Below, in pieces: positions 46,893 to 56,964 of a stretch of DNA of 64,000 bases. Position 1 is the stretch's first letter. Every line of letters begins with the position of its first letter. The DNA lies in assembly GCF_025370755.1 (NCBI RefSeq), contig NZ_JAMXFC010000002.1, forward strand, positions 124,001 through 188,000, read 5' to 3'. The notes under the pieces are model-generated. The model saw only the letters and a program-made list of their open reading frames with translations, did not search any database and had not been told where the DNA came from. Position numbers and translations under genes: made by a program. This DNA comes from Laspinema sp. D2d (GTDB taxonomy: Bacteria > Cyanobacteriota > Cyanobacteriia > Cyanobacteriales > Laspinemataceae).

Positions 46893-48452
46893 ATGGCGCG
46901 TCTGGCACTGTTGAGCACATCGGACAAAACCGGGTTAATTGACCTCGCCCGCCACTTAGTTGAGGAATTCGGCTTTGACCTCATCAGCAGTGGCGGCACC
47001 GCAACAGCCCTCAAAGAAGCCGGTTTGCCGGTGACTAAAGTCTCCGATTATACTGGGTCCCCGGAAATTTTAGGGGGGCGGGTGAAAACCCTGCATCCCC
47101 GGATTCATGGTGGTATTTTAGCAAGACGGGACCTCCCCGAGGACCGGACCGATTTAGAAACCAACGACATTCGTCCCATTGATTTAGTAGTCGTCAATCT
47201 TTACCCCTTTGAAGAAACGATCGCTAAGGAAGGGGTAACGTTTGCGGATGCGATCGAAAATATTGACATTGGCGGTCCCACGCTCCTGCGGGCAGCGGCG
47301 AAAAATCACGCCCATCTGACGGTATTATGTAATCCGGGGCAGTATGACAGTTACTTGAAAGAATTGCGGAGTAACGGGAAAGCGTCCGGCGAATTTCGTT
47401 TGTCTTGTGCGAGAACGGCCTTTTGGCATACGGCGTCATACGATCGCGCGATCGCCACTTATTTGGATACCGCAGGCAATGCCGAGTCCCAACATCCCAC
47501 CCTGCCGGATACCTTTAGCATTAGCGGACATCAAATCCAATCCCTGCGTTACGGGGAAAATCCTCATCAAGGTGCAGCATGGTATCAAATGGGAACAACG
47601 CCAACGGGATGGACGGCAGCGAACAAATTGCAAGGGAAAGAGTTAAGTTATAACAACTTAATTGATTTAGAAGCAGCCCGTCAAATTATTGCAGAATTTT
47701 CCGGCAGTAGCGAAGATGCGGCAGTGGCTATTCTCAAACATACTAATCCCTGTGGCGTAGCAATGGGAAGTACCCTAGTGGAAGCCTATCAAAAGGCTTT
47801 GGCAGCGGATTCAGTGTCAGCATTTGGGGGAATTGTTGCTTGCAATCGTCCTTTAGATGCAGCAACAGCTACGGAACTGACTAAAACCTTTTTGGAATGT
47901 GTGGTGGCCCCGGATTGCGAACCGGAAGCGGCAGAAATTTTGAGTAAAAAATCTAAGGTGCGAATTTTAACCTTAGCGGATTTAAGCAGTGGTCCGAAAA
48001 AGACGATTAAGGCGATCGCCGGAGGATTTTTGGTCCAAGAGTCGGACGATGCGATCGCGGAACCAACGGAGTGGCAAGTCGTTACGGAAAAACAACCCAC
48101 GGCAGACCAACTGGCGGAACTTCTATTTGCTTGGAAGGTCGTCAAGCACGTTAAATCTAATGCCATTGTCGTGACTGGCGATCGCACCACTTTAGGTGTA
48201 GGGGCCGGTCAAATGAATCGGGTTGGGTCTGTTAAAATAGCCCTCGAACAAGCAGGAGAAAAAGCCCAGGGTGCGGTCCTCGCCTCTGATGGATTTTTCC
48301 CCTTTGATGATTCAGTGCGAACAGCAGCAGCAGCAGGCATCATCGCCGTGGTGCAACCGGGAGGAAGTCTGCGGGATAGTGATTCCATTGCGGCAGCCAA
48401 TGAACTCGGTTTAGTGATGGTTTGTACCGGCATCCGTCACTTCTATCATTAA
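46893..48452 (+). CDS. purH: Bifunctional AICAR formyltransferase/IMP cyclohydrolase
   Basis: A 519-aa enzyme of normal length catalysing the last two steps of IMP synthesis. The N-terminal MGS-like IMP cyclohydrolase domain (residues 1-about 200) begins MARLALLSTSDKTGLIDLA and includes GGRVKTLHPRIHGGILARRD and NIDIGGPTLLRAAAKNH. The C-terminal transformylase domain includes LRYGENPHQGAAWY, ILKHTNPCGVAMG with the catalytic Lys-His pair, and ASDGFFPFDDSV. AGGATG precedes the ATG. The gene appears to be transcribed alone. Confidence 0.98.
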   Translation: MARLALLSTSDKTGLIDLARHLVEEFGFDLISSGGTATALKEAGLPVTKVSDYTGSPEILGGRVKTLHPRIHGGILARRDLPEDRTDLETNDIRPIDLVVVNLYPFEETIAKEGVTFADAIENIDIGGPTLLRAAAKNHAHLTVLCNPGQYDSYLKELRSNGKASGEFRLSCARTAFWHTASYDRAIATYLDTAGNAESQHPTLPDTFSISGHQIQSLRYGENPHQGAAWYQMGTTPTGWTAANKLQGKELSYNNLIDLEAARQIIAEFSGSSEDAAVAILKHTNPCGVAMGSTLVEAYQKALAADSVSAFGGIVACNRPLDAATATELTKTFLECVVAPDCEPEAAEILSKKSKVRILTLADLSSGPKKTIKAIAGGFLVQESDDAIAEPTEWQVVTEKQPTADQLAELLFAWKVVKHVKSNAIVVTGDRTTLGVGAGQMNRVGSVKIALEQAGEKAQGAVLASDGFFPFDDSVRTAAAAGIIAVVQPGGSLRDSDSIAAANELGLVMVCTGIRHFYH

Positions 48453-48480: not shown

Positions 48481-48590
48481 TGATTGCTAAACTGGGTTAA
48501 GTTTGATGACAAAAGGTCCAAAATTACGGGTTTATGCCGTAATAAACCGGATGTGGTTTAGTTTACAATAGGATTGATTTGGATAGGATT

Positions 48591-49661
48591 ATGCAAACTC
48601 AACTGGGGCAGGCTAACCTGATGAGTCCCTCTTCCTCCGGACTACCAAATGAGTGGAAACAATGGATTGCTACCAATAAATTGCGCCAGCTTCCTGATGG
48701 TTGTCTGGTAGATATTCTCGTGCAACGGGGGGTAGATATTCGGATGGCGATCGCCGAAGTCAAAGCCATCTCTACTCATCCCTATTTTCAAGCGGCTTCA
48801 GCGATACTGGCAGAACAAAACCAACAAGCCGAAGCTACAATCACGAGGCAAGCCATCCAGGTTCAAAAACTGGAAACTCAGCTCGATATTTACCGACACC
48901 TAGAGAAATTAAACCCGAATTATAACCAGATTCAACGAGTGGAGTCTCTGTCGAAGTCCGAATTTTTTGACAATTATTTTGCCCAAAATACCCCGGTAAT
49001 TTTAACCGGCATCATGAAAAATTGGCAGGCATTGTCTCGGTGGAATCCCGAATATTTAAAGCAAGAGTATGGAGAGGTTGCCGTAGAGGTTCAATTTAAT
49101 TGGGAATCAAGCCCTTTATTTGAGCAACAAAAAGAAAAACACCGCCAGCAAATGAAAATGGGCGATTATGTAGATTTAGTCGTCACTGGGGGGAAAACTA
49201 ATGATTATTATATGGTTCCTTTTAATGGCAACTTTGATAGTCCTGAGTTTAAACCCCTGCTTCAGGATGTGGAAATCTTTTCCGAGTATATTGACCCCTC
49301 GAACCAAACCGCTTGTATTTTCTTCTGGTTTGATCCGGAAGGAACGATTACCCCATTGCATCATGACCCCTGCAATGTACTGTTATCGCAAGTGTATGGC
49401 AGAAAGCGAATTCGCCTGATTTCTCCCAATCAAAAAGCTTTACTTTATAATTATGTGGGGGTTTACAGTGAGGTGGATTTACTCAATCCGGATTACGAGA
49501 AATATCCTCGGTTTAAGGAGGTGGAAATCATCGAAGTTATCTTAGAACCGGGAGAGGTGATATTTTTGCCCGTGGGATGGTGGTATCATGTGGAGTCGTT
49601 AGATATTGCGATTTCCATTTCTTTCACGAACTTTTTGATTAATAATTATTACAATATCTAG
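48591..49661 (+). CDS. JmjC/cupin-8 Fe(II)/2-oxoglutarate oxygenase (oxygenase cluster gene 1)
   Basis: About 356 aa from ATG 48591, chosen for the GGATAGGA just before it. Residues about 20-70 form a helical domain (LPNEWKQWIATNKLRQLPDG, then LVQRGVD) of the type found at the N-terminus of cyanobacterial cupin-like proteins. A linker with LETQLDIYRHLEKLNPNY leads to a cupin-8/JmjC barrel: metal ligands H257 and D259 (TPLHHDPCN) and distal H333 (GWWYHVESL), with YGRKRIRLISP between. All three iron ligands are present, so activity is expected; relatives hydroxylate protein or peptide side chains. It is first of four same-strand oxygenase-fold genes. The linker and barrel closely match the next gene. 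Confidence 0.88.
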   Translation: MQTQLGQANLMSPSSSGLPNEWKQWIATNKLRQLPDGCLVDILVQRGVDIRMAIAEVKAISTHPYFQAASAILAEQNQQAEATITRQAIQVQKLETQLDIYRHLEKLNPNYNQIQRVESLSKSEFFDNYFAQNTPVILTGIMKNWQALSRWNPEYLKQEYGEVAVEVQFNWESSPLFEQQKEKHRQQMKMGDYVDLVVTGGKTNDYYMVPFNGNFDSPEFKPLLQDVEIFSEYIDPSNQTACIFFWFDPEGTITPLHHDPCNVLLSQVYGRKRIRLISPNQKALLYNYVGVYSEVDLLNPDYEKYPRFKEVEIIEVILEPGEVIFLPVGWWYHVESLDIAISISFTNFLINNYYNI

Positions 49662-49676
49662 GAGGCAGAGAAGAGA

Positions 49677-50840
49677 ATGAAGGTTGATAGAGGAACAGAA
49701 ACTATGATAGCTGAACAAATCAACGTTGACTCGGCGATCGCCACCGCAGATGACTCACAACTGGTGCAAGTGATGTTAATGCTAGATGGGGGTCACCAGT
49801 GTGAAATCGCTTTAATGCCCGATTCCCCGTTACTGGGGGAACTATTTCAAGCCTTAACAACAGAACCGGAAAAGAGTGAGAATAAACTGTTTCAGATTCC
49901 GATTGAAGAGGGAAACGGTGCGTTGTATTTTCCTAGTGCATCTTTAGTGGCGATCGCCACCGATCCAGCTGTCTCCCTGCCAATTCCAGAGAAACCCAAA
50001 CCCCTTGAAACCCGGGAAGACATCGAACCAGACGATCCCGTGCAACAACTGGAATGCCAACTCAATATTTACCACAAACTAGAAAAACTATCACCCAACT
50101 ATGGAAAAATTGAGAGAATTCCCCATGTTTCAGGCCAGGAATTTTTAGAGCGGTTTTATATTAGAAACAAGCCGGTAATTTTCACTGATTTGATGGACAA
50201 CTGGAAAGCCCTTTCATTGTGGAATCCCCAATATTTTAAGGAAAAATATGGTCATGTAACCGTTGGTGCACAGTTTAATCGGGAATCCAATGAGCAGTAT
50301 GAATGGTATCGAGAGAAGCATCAAAAAATGGTACTCTTTGGTGAATTTGTTGATCAGGTTCTACAAGGGGGAGAAACCAATGATTACTATATCGGGGCCT
50401 ACAATGGCAACTTTAGCCGGGAAGGTTTCAAAAGACTGCTGGACGATATCGAACTCTTTCCTGAGTATTTAACTGATACTAAAGATCCCCATAAGACGGC
50501 ATTCTGGTTTGGTCCAAGCGGGGCGATTACTCCCTTGCACTTTGACATTTTAAATACATTCCTATGTCAAGTGTATGGACGGAAACGGGTGCGCTTAATC
50601 TCGCCAAATCAGAAACATTTACTAAGTGTTTATGGGAAATGCTACAGTAATATTGATTTAGAAAATCCCAATTTAGAACGCTATCCTCAACTTAAAGATT
50701 TGGATATTATGGAGATAACTATTGGCCCGGGAGATGTGCTATTTTTACCTGTGGGTTGGTGGCATCAAGTGCGGTCTTTGGAAGTTTCGATTTCTATATC
50801 TTACTTGAACTTAGCATTTGAAAATACGTTTAATTTCTAA
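49677..50840 (+). CDS. JmjC/cupin-8 oxygenase with alternative N-terminal domain (oxygenase cluster gene 2)
   Basis: A 387-aa protein. Residues about 25-105 are a compact beta-type domain (VQVMLMLDGGHQCEIAL, then LFQIPIEEG and SLVAIATDP) that is absent from gene 1 but shared with genes 3 and 4. The linker (LECQLNIYHKLEKLSPNY) and the cupin-8 barrel match gene 1. The iron ligands are H288, D290 (TPLHFDILN) and H363 (GWWHQVRSL), so the enzyme should be active. It starts 16 bases after gene 1 with AGGAGG upstream. The protein looks like a recombination product of a gene-1-type barrel and a gene-3/4-type N-terminus. Confidence 0.88.
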   Translation: MKVDRGTETMIAEQINVDSAIATADDSQLVQVMLMLDGGHQCEIALMPDSPLLGELFQALTTEPEKSENKLFQIPIEEGNGALYFPSASLVAIATDPAVSLPIPEKPKPLETREDIEPDDPVQQLECQLNIYHKLEKLSPNYGKIERIPHVSGQEFLERFYIRNKPVIFTDLMDNWKALSLWNPQYFKEKYGHVTVGAQFNRESNEQYEWYREKHQKMVLFGEFVDQVLQGGETNDYYIGAYNGNFSREGFKRLLDDIELFPEYLTDTKDPHKTAFWFGPSGAITPLHFDILNTFLCQVYGRKRVRLISPNQKHLLSVYGKCYSNIDLENPNLERYPQLKDLDIMEITIGPGDVLFLPVGWWHQVRSLEVSISISYLNLAFENTFNF

Positions 50841-50947
50841 AATAGAATCATTTAAATTCAAAGGAACAAATGAGGGAATAATCATCAAGCAATAGGGGTG
50901 ATTTCTATTATTTCTTCCTAAATTTAAACGAGAGAGAAGCACTAAAA

Positions 50948-51820
50948 ATGGAAACAATGAAACTAGAGTCTAACCAGGTAAAAGTGATTGTGATGATGAC
51001 GGGAGGTCATCAATATGAACTGTCTTTAACTAAGGATGAATCCTTGTTGAGGGAATTGTTTCAAGCCTTAAGCAATCGGGGGAAAAATGGGCGAACAGAT
51101 GTGATTAGAATTCCCAACGAAGAGGACGGGTCCTGTTTGTACATTCCTCGGGATGCGATCGCCGCGATCGCCACTGTTCCTCCCATCCCCGTGCAATCCC
51201 TCAGCTTACAACCGCCCTCTCCACAACCGGAACCCACTCCCCAACTACCCCAGCAACTGATAGAATCCACGGTGGTGCAACTGGATAATTTTCTCAACCG
51301 GGCAGAGTATCAGGAACTCATTCAGACTATCTTTCCCCAGGAAGGAACTGCCTCTAGTGGGATTCAGTTGCCCACACCTCAATCCTTCGCACTGTCGCGG
51401 GAACTGCTGTTACACCGAGTACAAATGATGCTTCCCGATGTGCTGATTCAGTTGGGATTAGAGGGGTTTCCCTTGACAGCAATGGAAGCAGAGGAGACTC
51501 CGAACCATGCCCCCGAGGGACAGGCAATTTCTACCGATGGAAATCGTCCCGAAACTGCCTTAAGGGTGTTGAATTTCTGTTACTTTTTCTATCAAACGCC
51601 GAAACCTTTTAGCGGGGGAGAAATGCGGATTTATGATAGTCAAATGGTGAATAATCAAGTGAGTATCGCACAATCCTATAAAACCATAGAACCGCGTCAA
51701 AATAGTATTGTATTTTTCTTAACCAGCAATGCTTATGAAGTGCTGCCGATACATCCGAACTCCCCAGCATTTAGCGATCGCTGCTTCCGGTTCAGAGGGT
51801 GGATGCGGCGATCGGGTTAA
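50948..51820 (+). CDS. Prolyl-4-hydroxylase-fold protein lacking iron ligands (oxygenase cluster gene 3)
   Basis: A 290-aa protein. The N-terminal domain (VKVIVMMTGGHQYELSL, then IRIPNEEDG and AIAAIATVPP) is the one shared with genes 2 and 4. The C-terminal part aligns with the 2-oxoglutarate oxygenase of gene 4 (TPKPFSGGEMRIYDS against EPKPFTGGELRMYDT). The iron-binding HxD of gene 4 reads S195-T-D197 here, and the distal histidine reads Y263 (NAYEVLP). Both histidines are therefore lost and the protein is predicted not to bind iron; a binding or regulatory role is possible. It lies 107 bases after gene 2. Confidence 0.82.
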   Translation: METMKLESNQVKVIVMMTGGHQYELSLTKDESLLRELFQALSNRGKNGRTDVIRIPNEEDGSCLYIPRDAIAAIATVPPIPVQSLSLQPPSPQPEPTPQLPQQLIESTVVQLDNFLNRAEYQELIQTIFPQEGTASSGIQLPTPQSFALSRELLLHRVQMMLPDVLIQLGLEGFPLTAMEAEETPNHAPEGQAISTDGNRPETALRVLNFCYFFYQTPKPFSGGEMRIYDSQMVNNQVSIAQSYKTIEPRQNSIVFFLTSNAYEVLPIHPNSPAFSDRCFRFRGWMRRSG

Positions 51821-51877
51821 GCGGGTTTAACTCAATTTATCCACGTCTTACAGTCTACTGGCTATAAACTTTAACGT

Positions 51878-52786
51878 ATGACATCCAATCTCACCGAGAC
51901 ACAAACCGTTCATGTAATGCTACTGATTGCCGGGGGACATCAGTGTGAATTGTCCCTGGCAGCGGATGCGCCATTGTTGCAAGATATCCTAGAAACGATC
52001 GCACTCCGTTCTCACCCTGAGCGATCGCAACCCAATAAACTCTTCCAGATCCCGATGGAAGACGGCGGACCTACTTTATACTTTCCGAGTCGTTCCATCG
52101 TGGCGATCGCCACCGATCCGCCGGTTCCGCTACCCGAAATTGCCCCCGAACCCGAACCCATTCAGCGATCGGCAGCAGCAACCGCACCGATTTTAATCAA
52201 ATCCCGGTTCCTCAAAATCCAGAACTTTTTAAGCGAAGCTGAAAACCAACGAATTCTCAATTATGTGATAGAAAATCAGCGAGAATTTGAAGATAGTAAA
52301 GTTGGAACCAATGACCCCAACTATCGGCGATCGAAAATCTTCTATTACTTCGAGGAGTTTGGGGACTTAATTCGAGAAAGAATCAGACAAAACCTTCCTC
52401 AAGTCAGAGAATATTTGGGAGTTCCCCCCTTTGAAATTGCCGAAATCGAATCGCAAATAACCGCCCACAACGACGGACATTATTATAAAGCCCATAACGA
52501 TAACGGGGATGAATCCACCGCCACCCGAGTCCTGAGTTACATTTACTACTTCCACCGAGAACCCAAACCCTTTACCGGAGGAGAACTACGGATGTACGAT
52601 ACCTGGAAACTGGGAGAAAGTACCTATTCCCTAGCTGAATCCTATACCGACATCCCCCCCACCAATAACAGCATCGTCTTCTTTGTCAGTAACTGTTGCC
52701 ATGAAGTTCGGCCTATTATTTGCCCTTCTAAAGACTTCAAAAATAGCCGCTTCACCCTAAATGGGTGGATTAGAAGAACCGTATAA
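51878..52786 (+). CDS. Prolyl-4-hydroxylase-type Fe(II)/2-oxoglutarate oxygenase (oxygenase cluster gene 4)
   Basis: A 302-aa protein. The shared N-terminal domain (VQVMLLIAGGHQCELSL, then LFQIPMEDG and SIVAIATDPP) occupies residues about 9-85. The C-terminal double-stranded beta-helix has the full active site: H206 and D208 (YKAHNDNG), distal H275 (CCHEVRP) and R291 (SRFTLNGW) for 2-oxoglutarate. EPKPFTGGELRMYD is a family hallmark. Relatives hydroxylate proline or other residues in proteins. It starts 57 bases after gene 3. A TPR gene follows after a repeat-containing gap. Confidence 0.88.
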   Translation: MTSNLTETQTVHVMLLIAGGHQCELSLAADAPLLQDILETIALRSHPERSQPNKLFQIPMEDGGPTLYFPSRSIVAIATDPPVPLPEIAPEPEPIQRSAAATAPILIKSRFLKIQNFLSEAENQRILNYVIENQREFEDSKVGTNDPNYRRSKIFYYFEEFGDLIRERIRQNLPQVREYLGVPPFEIAEIESQITAHNDGHYYKAHNDNGDESTATRVLSYIYYFHREPKPFTGGELRMYDTWKLGESTYSLAESYTDIPPTNNSIVFFVSNCCHEVRPIICPSKDFKNSRFTLNGWIRRTV

Positions 52787-53763: not shown

Positions 53764-56700
53764 ATGTGGCGGAAACTGTGGCGGTGGCTAAAACAAATCT
53801 ATCACTCCCTACAACAACGATTCCAAAAACGGGAACCGCCACCGTCACCGCATCAAATCCCTGATCTCGAATTCGAGATAAAATTCATGCCGCTACTCGA
53901 AGCAGCAGCAAACGGTGCTAGTGGAGGAGATATTCAGACGCACAGAATGGCAACCAACATCAAAGAATCCGAATGGATACCCTGGTTGCAGCGCTTCGGG
54001 GAACGGTTACAACAGAACCCCGAAACTCATGCAGAAATAGCCCAACGCCTGATACAGTTTGGGCAACTTCATCGCGGAGAATTGGGAACAGTTGCCGAGA
54101 GAATCGGCAGGGAGATATTAGCACTGATAACGCCTTCGGTTGTGCAAGAGGAGGTAACAAGTCAGGGACCGGAAAAGGATGAGGCAGAGGAATGGTTTCA
54201 GCGCGGGGTAGAGCAAATTGAGAGGGGGGATTTTACTGCTGCCATTGCCTCATTCAATGAAGTGAGCCTCCTCCAACCCAATTACTCTGAAGCTTATTAC
54301 AACCGAGGAATAGCGCAGAGTTACCTAGAACAATACGAGGAAGCCATTGCCTCATTCAATGAAATGATTCGCCTCCAACCTGATTACCCGGAGTCTTATT
54401 GCAGCCGAGGGGTAGTGCAGGCTGACTTAGGGAAATATGAGGAAGCCATTGCCTCCTACAATGAAGCAATCCGCCTCAAACCCGATTTCCCTGACCCTTA
54501 TTACAACCGAGGGGTAGCCCAAGGTTACCTTGGGCAATATGAGGATGCTATTGCGTCATTCAATGAATTTATCCGTCTCCAACCTGATTACCCCGATGCT
54601 TATGGCAAGCGAGGGTTAGCGCAGGGTTACCTTGGGCAATATGAGGAAGCCATTGCCTCATTCAATGAAGCAATCCGCGTCCAACCTGATTACCCGGAGG
54701 CTTATGGCAACCGAGGGGTAGTGCAGGCTGACTTAGGGAAATATGAGGAAGCCATTGCCTCCTACAATGAAGCAATCCGCTTCAAACCCGATTTCCCTGA
54801 CCCTTATTACAACCGAGGGTTAGCGCAAGGTTACCTTGGGCAATATGAAGAAGCCATTGCCTCATTCAATGAAGCAATTCGCCTCCAACCCTATTACCTA
54901 GAGGCTTATTGCAATCGAGGGGTAGCGCAAGGTTACCTAGGGCAATATGAGGAAGCTATTGCCTCATTCAATGAAGCAATCTGCCTCCAACCCGATTACC
55001 CCGAGGCTTATTACAACCGAGGAAATGCGCAAGGTTACCTAGGGCAATATGAGGAAGCCATTGCCTCCTACCATGAAGCAATTCGCCTCAAACCCGATTA
55101 CTCTGAGGCTTATTACAAACGAGGAAATGCGCAAGGTTATCTAGGGCAATATGAGGAAGCCATTGCCTCATTCAATGAAGTAATCCACCTCCAACCCCAT
55201 TACCCCTGGGCTTATTACAGCCGAGGGGTAATGCAGGTTGACTTAGGACAATATGAGGAAGCTATTACCTCATACAATGAAGCAATCCGGCTCAAACCCG
55301 ATTTCCCCGAAGCTTATCTCAACCGAGGCAAGGTACAGGATAACCTAGGGCAATATGAGGAAGCCATTGCCTCATATAATGAAGCAATCCGGCTCAAACC
55401 CGATTTCCCCGAAGCTTATCTCAACAGAGGGGCAGTCCTGTGTAATAACTTAGGACAATATAAGGATGCCCTTGCCTCATTCAATGAAGCAATTCGCCTC
55501 AAACCTGATTACCCTGACGCTTATTACAACCGAGGAAACGCGCAGGTTTACTTAAGAGAATATGAGGAAGCCATTGCCTCATTCAATCAAGCAATTCACC
55601 TCAAACCCGATTACGCCACAGCTTATATCAACCGAGGGGGAGTGTTGTGTGATAACTTAGGGCAATATGAGGAAGCCATTGCTTCATTTAATGAAGCAAT
55701 CCGCCTCAAACCCGATTTCCCCTGGGCTTATTACAATAGAGGGGTAGCACAGGTTTACCTAGGGCAATATCAAGATGCTATTACCTCATTCAATGAAGCA
55801 ATCCGCCTCCAACCGGATTTCCCCGCAGCTTATTACAAACTAGGGTTAGTGCAGTATAACGTAGGGCAACCTGAAGACGCCCTTGCCTCATTCAATGAAG
55901 CAATCCGCCTCAAACCGGATGATCCCGAGGCTTATTATAGGCGAGGGAATGCTCAGTATAGCTTAGGGCAATATGAGGATGCGATTGCCTCATTCAATGA
56001 AGCAATCCACCTCAAACCCGACTTGCTTGAAGCTTATTACAACCGAGGAAATGTGCAGGTTGACTTAAGACAATATGAGGAAGCCATTGCCTCATTCAAT
56101 GAAACAATCCGCCTCAAATCCGATTTGCCCGAAGCTTATTACGGGCGAGGGAATGCGCAGGGTTTCCTAGGGCAATATGAAAATGCCGTTGCGTCATTGA
56201 ATGAAGCAATCCGCCTCAAACCCGATTACTTTGACGCTTATTCCATCCGAGGGGTAGGGCAGTATAACCTAGGACAATATGAGGATGCCATTGCCTCATT
56301 CAATGAAGCAATCCGCCTCAAGCCTAACTTGCCCGAGGCTTATTACAACCGAGGGTTAGTGCAGTATAACCTACGGCAACATGAGGATGCTATTGGCTCA
56401 TTCAGTGAAGCTATCCGCCTCAAGCCCGATTACCCTGACGCTTATTATCGGCGAGGGAATGCGCAGGGTTACTTAGGGCTATATGAGGATGCCTTTGCTT
56501 CATTCAATGAAGCAATTCGCCTCAAACCCGATTACTCTGAAGCCTATTCTAACCGAGGGAATGTACAGGTTTATTTAGGAAAACATGAGGATGCCATTGC
56601 CTCATTCAATGAAGCACTCCGCCTTACACCCAATGACATCTGGTCTTATTACAACCGAGGGATAGCCCAGGGTTACCTAGGAAAACATGAGGATGCCATT

Positions 56701-56964
56701 GCCTCATTCAATGAAGTAATCCGCCTCAAATCGGATTTTGCCGAAGCTTATTACAACCGAGGGAATGCGCAGCATAATCTAGGGCAACATGAGGAAGCCA
56801 TTGCCTCATTCAATGAAGCAATTCGCCTCAAACCGGATTTCCCAGGGGCTTATTACAACCGAGGGAATGCGCAGCATAATCTAGGGCAACACGAGGAAGC
56901 CATTGCTTCATTCAATGAAGCAATCCGTCTCAAACCGGATTTCCCCGGGGCTTATTACAACTGA
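53764..56964 (+). CDS. Giant TPR-repeat protein, ended by a nonsense codon within a repeat
   Basis: A 1,066-aa protein. Residues 1-140 form a basic N-terminus (MWRKLWRWLKQIYHSLQQRF) and a helical domain (FMPLLEAAANGASGG, WIPWLQRFGERL) seen in cyanobacterial TPR and caspase-like proteins. About 27 TPR units of 34 residues (YYNRGNAQGYLGQYEEAIAS, then FNEAIRLKPDFPEA) follow, with two 35-residue units carrying an extra Asn or Asp. At DNA level units are nearly identical at 102-bp spacing. The stop at 56962 replaces the CGA (Arg) found at the same place in other units, and the next 30 bases still read as a decayed repeat (GG-A-stop-DKLELEQ). The true protein was probably longer. Confidence 0.88.
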   Translation: MWRKLWRWLKQIYHSLQQRFQKREPPPSPHQIPDLEFEIKFMPLLEAAANGASGGDIQTHRMATNIKESEWIPWLQRFGERLQQNPETHAEIAQRLIQFGQLHRGELGTVAERIGREILALITPSVVQEEVTSQGPEKDEAEEWFQRGVEQIERGDFTAAIASFNEVSLLQPNYSEAYYNRGIAQSYLEQYEEAIASFNEMIRLQPDYPESYCSRGVVQADLGKYEEAIASYNEAIRLKPDFPDPYYNRGVAQGYLGQYEDAIASFNEFIRLQPDYPDAYGKRGLAQGYLGQYEEAIASFNEAIRVQPDYPEAYGNRGVVQADLGKYEEAIASYNEAIRFKPDFPDPYYNRGLAQGYLGQYEEAIASFNEAIRLQPYYLEAYCNRGVAQGYLGQYEEAIASFNEAICLQPDYPEAYYNRGNAQGYLGQYEEAIASYHEAIRLKPDYSEAYYKRGNAQGYLGQYEEAIASFNEVIHLQPHYPWAYYSRGVMQVDLGQYEEAITSYNEAIRLKPDFPEAYLNRGKVQDNLGQYEEAIASYNEAIRLKPDFPEAYLNRGAVLCNNLGQYKDALASFNEAIRLKPDYPDAYYNRGNAQVYLREYEEAIASFNQAIHLKPDYATAYINRGGVLCDNLGQYEEAIASFNEAIRLKPDFPWAYYNRGVAQVYLGQYQDAITSFNEAIRLQPDFPAAYYKLGLVQYNVGQPEDALASFNEAIRLKPDDPEAYYRRGNAQYSLGQYEDAIASFNEAIHLKPDLLEAYYNRGNVQVDLRQYEEAIASFNETIRLKSDLPEAYYGRGNAQGFLGQYENAVASLNEAIRLKPDYFDAYSIRGVGQYNLGQYEDAIASFNEAIRLKPNLPEAYYNRGLVQYNLRQHEDAIGSFSEAIRLKPDYPDAYYRRGNAQGYLGLYEDAFASFNEAIRLKPDYSEAYSNRGNVQVYLGKHEDAIASFNEALRLTPNDIWSYYNRGIAQGYLGKHEDAIASFNEVIRLKSDFAEAYYNRGNAQHNLGQHEEAIASFNEAIRLKPDFPGAYYNRGNAQHNLGQHEEAIASFNEAIRLKPDFPGAYYN

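Follow-up and report, generated by a model that had tools for sequence, protein, structure and literature searches.

A four-gene array of oxygenase-fold proteins in Laspinema includes a conserved member without its catalytic residues and an unnamed N-terminal domain

The window analysed here, a stretch of 64,000 nucleotides from Laspinema sp. D2d, carries purH, then four plus-strand open reading frames (ORFs; g1 to g4) and then a TPR gene. An initial annotation had described four neighbouring plus-strand genes, which ORF calls and Pfam bore out: g1 and g2 matched Cupin_8 (2.4e-44 and 2.6e-43) and also JmjC_2, and g3 and g4 matched 2OG-FeII_Oxy_3 (4.4e-7 and 6.8e-19). The ATG at 48591 chosen there as the start of g1 is internal to the ORF at 48579-49661. 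Four oxygenases had been claimed; the barrel families stood (two JmjC/cupin_8, two of prolyl-hydroxylase type), but the catalytic residues of g3 are missing. The features of the locus are:

46893 to 48452, plus strand: purH, directly upstream of the array; an inherited neighbour, outside the proposed system
48579 to 49661, plus strand: g1, JmjC/cupin_8 barrel preceded by a separate helical-looking region in place of the shared domain; H261, D263, Tyr336
49677 to 50840, plus strand: g2, shared domain and JmjC/cupin_8 barrel; H288, D290 and H363 kept; nearest solved structures JMJD5
49758 to 49976, plus strand: shared domain of g2, profile match
50948 to 51820, plus strand: g3, shared domain and prolyl-hydroxylase-type barrel without iron or 2OG ligands (putative pseudo-oxygenase)
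50972 to 51193, plus strand: shared domain of g3, profile match
51530 to 51784, plus strand: active-site positions of g3; Ser195 (for His), Asp197 kept, Tyr263 (for His), Cys279 (for Arg)
51878 to 52786, plus strand: g4, shared domain and active-looking prolyl-hydroxylase-type barrel; H206, D208, H275, R291
51902 to 52129, plus strand: shared domain of g4, profile match; predicted beta-beta-alpha-beta-beta-beta

The intergenic gaps g1-g2, g2-g3 and g3-g4 measure 15, 107 and 57 bases. A promoter and terminator scan of the array gave no excess over shuffled sequences (11 vs 11.3; 10 vs 8.6), so a single operon is not supported.

The predicted model of g4 (pLDDT 82.7) found its best Foldseek matches in 4iw3, 4j25, PHD2 and Dictyostelium PhyA, so that its fold is nearest to PPHD, PHD2 and PhyA. 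The full HxD...H triad is present together with the 2OG-binding Arg (H206, D208, H275, R291), the same H, D, H, R set as in PPHD and animal PHD2. From this model we infer that g4 acts like the bacterial PHD-type prolyl hydroxylases, exemplified by Pseudomonas putida PPHD, which is described as acting on EF-Tu (PMC7864055). However, g4 shares only ~20% identity with these enzymes and carries an extra N-terminal domain, and proline hydroxylation by g4 is a fold-based prediction. In g2 the HxD...H triad is kept in 8/8 copies of the genus, and phmmer placed its barrel closest to JMJD5 (E 7e-34) and FIH (E 8e-18). JMJD5 has been characterized as an arginyl C-3 hydroxylase (PMC5862942). By this resemblance g2, and g1 in other strains, would act like JMJD5-type side-chain hydroxylases, and arginine C-3 hydroxylation would be the predicted reaction of g2; unlike JMJD5 and FIH, g2 adds the shared domain and g1 has another N-terminal region. 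In the window, residue 336 of g1 (49584-49586) is a Tyr at the place of the distal iron ligand, whereas a His is present there in 10/10 other g1 proteins of array genomes; the HxD (H261, D263) is kept. Tyr336 may reflect a genuine loss of the ligand, a variant that uses Tyr as ligand or an error of assembly, and g1 may be inactive in this strain. PHF2 is a JmjC protein with a Tyr ligand, for which our literature search gave no confirmation.

The main point of the locus, which the initial annotation overlooked, is that g3 is conserved with its catalytic residues lost. Its Ser195, Asp197, Tyr263 and Cys279 correspond to His206, Asp208, His275 and Arg291 of g4. Both iron-binding histidines and the 2OG-binding Arg are replaced in all 11 g3 proteins, which come from four genera. 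The first His is S in seven and A, N, F or P in one each (the alignment is gapped near this site in G008 and G010), the second is Y in ten and S in one, and the Arg is C in every protein; the Asp is kept throughout. By comparison, H, D, H and R are kept in 12/12 g4 proteins from the same 11 genomes, and in 9/9 further g4 proteins (eight from other families and that of G013 from the same family). Across 28 genus pairs for each gene, the median dN/dS was 0.179 for g3, 0.154 for g1, 0.150 for g2 and 0.199 for g4, and the barrel part of g3 alone gave 0.189 within the genus. g3 is under purifying selection: its dN/dS lies far from 1, the value towards which a decaying pseudogene drifts, so the loss of residues is old and the protein has been kept. 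We conclude that g3 is probably not an oxygenase; judged by its sequence, it would be a pseudoenzyme, with catalytic residues lost from a gene conserved under selection.

The second point of interest is the N-terminal domain of ~75 residues common to g2, g3 and g4, which is homologous beyond chance. With g4 as query against its own genome (6.6 Mb, 83 contigs), g3 was matched over its full length (35% identity, E 1.4e-45), g2 solely via g4 residues 6-97 (56% identity, E 1.3e-23), and nothing beyond g4, g3 and g2 was found; phmmer concurs on the homology of the three domains. The motifs quoted in the initial annotation are present in all three, in looser form in g3 (IRIPNEED, AIATVPP). Modelled alone with AlphaFold, the domain gave a confident beta-beta-alpha-beta-beta-beta fold (pLDDT 88.6). 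It has no significant match to a named family: a Pfam search with 44 members reached a best E of 0.025, each family being matched by one or two members, a PDB sequence search a best E of 0.17, a PDB fold search with the model found none at E 0.001, and an NCBIfam search with whole proteins gave no match within the domain region. The claim of a real module holds. Two likenesses were considered and dropped: an Sm/Hfq-like fold, for which Hfq matches were weak (E 0.7, TM 0.4-0.5), and a ubiquitin-like fold, seen by eye only.

A profile of 75 positions built from 27 copies of the domain matched 24 of 386 genomes sampled across the cyanobacterial phylum. In the ORFs inspected, the domain precedes a prolyl-hydroxylase barrel, except in g2, where it precedes a JmjC barrel, and in G029 and G066, where it stands alone; the JmjC fusion was found in this genus only. 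The proposal of one module placed in front of different oxygenases thus holds for the two barrel families seen here, but the domain is not a general cassette. All 79 named loci carry an ORF with domain and barrel, a count biased towards this architecture, as the loci are the best-ranking among 277 relatives retrieved with an alignment of g4 and g3; some barrel relatives do not have the domain. A shortened copy near a contig end in G050 may be half of a broken gene. Because the domain marks a widespread cyanobacterial hydroxylase annotated merely as 2OG-Fe(II) oxygenase, it merits a family entry of its own. Several single loci depart from the common form. Barrel-free copies lie at L051:9871-10224 and at L086:7518-7988, the latter flanked by purH and a DUF4079 gene, a place taken by the full gene in other genomes. 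Three Okeania genomes have a second barrel without the domain after the domain and barrel gene (L185:9534-10148, L191:9615-10232, L196:9597-10217). A domain and barrel gene on a contig labelled Gammaproteobacteria (L190:7920-8903) groups with that of Oscillatoria PCC 10802, which reflects either transfer or wrong binning.

The array is stable within the genus. g1-g2-g3-g4 occur in the same order in 8/8 genus genomes, so they are not chance neighbours, and the neighbourhood comparison suggested with the initial annotation came out in its favour. In three more genera of the family, g1, g3 and g4 are adjacent, in the orders g4-g1-g3-g4 (G008), g1-g3-g4 (G009) and g4-g1-g3 (G010); all 11 genomes with g3 have g1 and g4 beside it. 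Three other genomes of the same family (G011-G013) carry a single g4-type gene; g3 is missing from them, as is g1 at E 1e-20. Further afield, a close g1 (E below 1e-100) was found in 7 of 194 phylum genomes, six of them domain-bearing and one (G231) not, and in 12 of 33 genomes checked individually (29 with domain and barrel, two with the domain alone, two with the barrel alone); among these 12, g1 stands beside g4 in G008 only. No close g1 was found in 19 of the 31 domain-bearing genomes checked, and outside the family g1, where present, is unlinked to g4 in 11/11 genomes. Co-occurrence of g1 and g4 is thus a loose link, confounded by kinship. A joint multi-step hydroxylation pathway, as first proposed, gains from the linkage in the genus but stays an inference given how g1 and g4 part outside the family.

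The g3 proteins cluster together in the tree (99/95; 98% of 200 bootstrap trees), and the tool warned of long branches. An origin of g3 inside the g4 tree gained no support: when g3 rows were entered for a single genus each time, they branched off outside g4, again on long branches. A starred branch (99/96; few alignment columns) has all 21 domains of the family on the same side, and g2 was found in the genus only; duplication within the family, together with a single joining of the domain to a JmjC copy, is therefore the most likely origin of the array.

Our best explanation, held tentatively, is that these genes encode a set for protein or peptide hydroxylation in which a conserved pseudo-oxygenase acts as adaptor. 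The set would have grown by local duplication from one cyanobacterial gene of g4 type, made of the shared domain and a prolyl-hydroxylase barrel. g4 would serve as prolyl hydroxylase, g2 (and g1 elsewhere) as JMJD5-type side-chain hydroxylases, and g3 as a non-catalytic partner. For the domain that g2, g3 and g4 share, a docking role is proposed solely from its presence in all three proteins, which would use it to bind one another or a single target. In favour of this reading are the constant order in the genus, the loss of residues in 11/11 g3 proteins vs 0/12 in g4, the dN/dS values, the invariable position of g3 beside g1 and g4, the nearest structures of g4 and g2, and a domain that folds confidently alone. 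It is weakened by the unlinked g1 outside the family, by the 19 domain-bearing genomes without a close g1 and by G011-G013, which live with g4 alone; loss of residues in g3 is not proof that all chemistry is lost, and g1 may be inactive here.

Related arrangements are known. CRTAP has no catalytic part, and the second barrel of OGFOD1/Tpa1 plays a non-catalytic role. P3H1/CRTAP, described as an active collagen prolyl 3-hydroxylase and a related partner in one complex (PMC3900401), provides a working analogy of an active hydroxylase with a related partner; however, the P3H1/CRTAP arrangement is eukaryotic and not homologous, g3 keeps its barrel and has lost the ligands, and a complex formed by the array is a prediction. 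In OGFOD1/Tpa1 a metal-binding catalytic barrel is described as packed on a second barrel (PMC4396695), but both barrels lie in one chain, whereas the array has two separate genes. A 2015 review called bacterial protein hydroxylation understudied (PMC4295552), and our literature search, largely without subscription papers, found neither this four-gene array nor any bacterial case in which a dead 2OG oxygenase is conserved next to active paralogues. The g3 family, with 11 genomes, a fixed Arg-to-Cys change and a domain common with two active-looking hydroxylases, makes an adaptor role of a pseudo-oxygenase testable. The interest of the locus lies in a conserved dead member and an unnamed domain; the initial annotation was right in what it observed and half right in how it was interpreted.

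The same genes could also form a tandem of duplicated proteins that act independently, with no joint pathway, a serious possibility although on balance a doubtful one. The domain would then be what g4 had at its N terminus from the start, serving as a lid or substrate arm; it would have been duplicated with the gene and joined on one occasion to a JmjC copy, and g3 would have taken a stand-alone job such as metabolite or ligand binding in its emptied pocket, perhaps via the conserved cysteine. Domain and barrel do form a single gene in many cyanobacteria, g1 is mostly unlinked elsewhere, and the placement of the family domains on one branch side (with few columns) means that within-family duplication explains all three copies. 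What speaks against independence is the array itself, intact in every genus genome and in part in three further genera, with g3 found only beside g1 and g4. A role as tailoring enzymes for a RiPP or similar peptide natural product, with the precursor gene at another locus, is unlikely. Two barrel relatives sit in Nif11-type clusters, one in an annotated LanM/Nif11 cluster on the Pseudanabaena plasmid pPg_03 and one in G052 (L049:9558-16422), which has a long, different N-terminus and lies beside six ORFs resembling Nif11-type precursors by eye. The barrel can therefore serve peptide tailoring. On a Gloeocapsa plasmid, a domain and barrel gene has an NRPS gene nearby. Yet both Nif11-type cluster relatives are without the shared domain, the two Nif11 matches of the window genome are both on other contigs, and the gaps within the array are those listed above; short ORFs are present behind g4.

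A function tied to the neighbours, through purine synthesis (purH) or an FIH-like ankyrin-repeat substrate, appears very improbable. An upstream purH on the same strand occurs in 35 of the 79 named loci (32 of the 70 with at least 3 kb of flanking DNA) and an ankyrin gene within the examined flank in 20 of 79, which would favour such a tie. However, three of 32 genomes without a domain match, G044, G026 and G023, have purH facing that ankyrin gene (at ~110 bases, 2.6 kb and 7.3 kb, respectively) and no such oxygenase, so the spot of the array is inherited synteny, and we rejected the ankyrin gene as an FIH-like substrate. All 32 of these domain-free genomes have purH, and 15 have the ankyrin gene at E 1e-60; in some genomes g4 lies near glutaredoxin and glutathione synthetase genes instead. 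Downstream, the TPR gene behind g4 is present in the window genome, G002, G004 and G005 and absent or not found in the flank examined in G003, G006 and G007 (the contig of G001 ends at g4), and a TPR or TPR-CHAT gene was dropped as a partner because its presence is not constant across the genus. The long TPR protein at 53764-56964 of the window matches, over its start, the TPR proteins encoded after g4 in three relatives of the genus; a CHAT-like motif, CHAT being assigned by motif pattern only, was seen in the TPR protein of G004 and G005 and none in the window copy. In PADLOC, a generic CRISPR-associated 2OG model matched g4 (3e-19) and g3 (1.6e-6) and TPR models matched the downstream gene; as these matches point to no known system, a defence system was rejected. 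A phage origin was rejected as well, the hits for it being generic.

The best substrate lead is a helical-looking repeat protein. In G010, G012 and G013 its gene precedes g4 on the same strand at a distance of 86 to 167 bases and, judged by coordinates, it also lies upstream of g4 in G011. Relatives were found in 13 of 14 genomes of the family and in none of 20 other genomes; the window genome's copy lies on contig 19 (G000:C19:109223-109924), unlinked to the array. This copy has the LRPQQ motif three times, and in relatives (for example L037:11659-12426, L046:10715-11458 and L099:7665-8408) only some repeats have it. We regard this family-restricted LRP-repeat protein as a candidate substrate or partner, nothing more. 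That g3 as pseudo-oxygenase and two active hydroxylases that differ in chemistry, the prolyl-type g4 and the JMJD5-like g2, assemble via the new domain and modify Arg-Pro motifs of the LRP-repeat protein is a conjecture to which we give little chance. In longer versions of the repeat protein, the C-terminal part resembles an outer-membrane barrel by eye.
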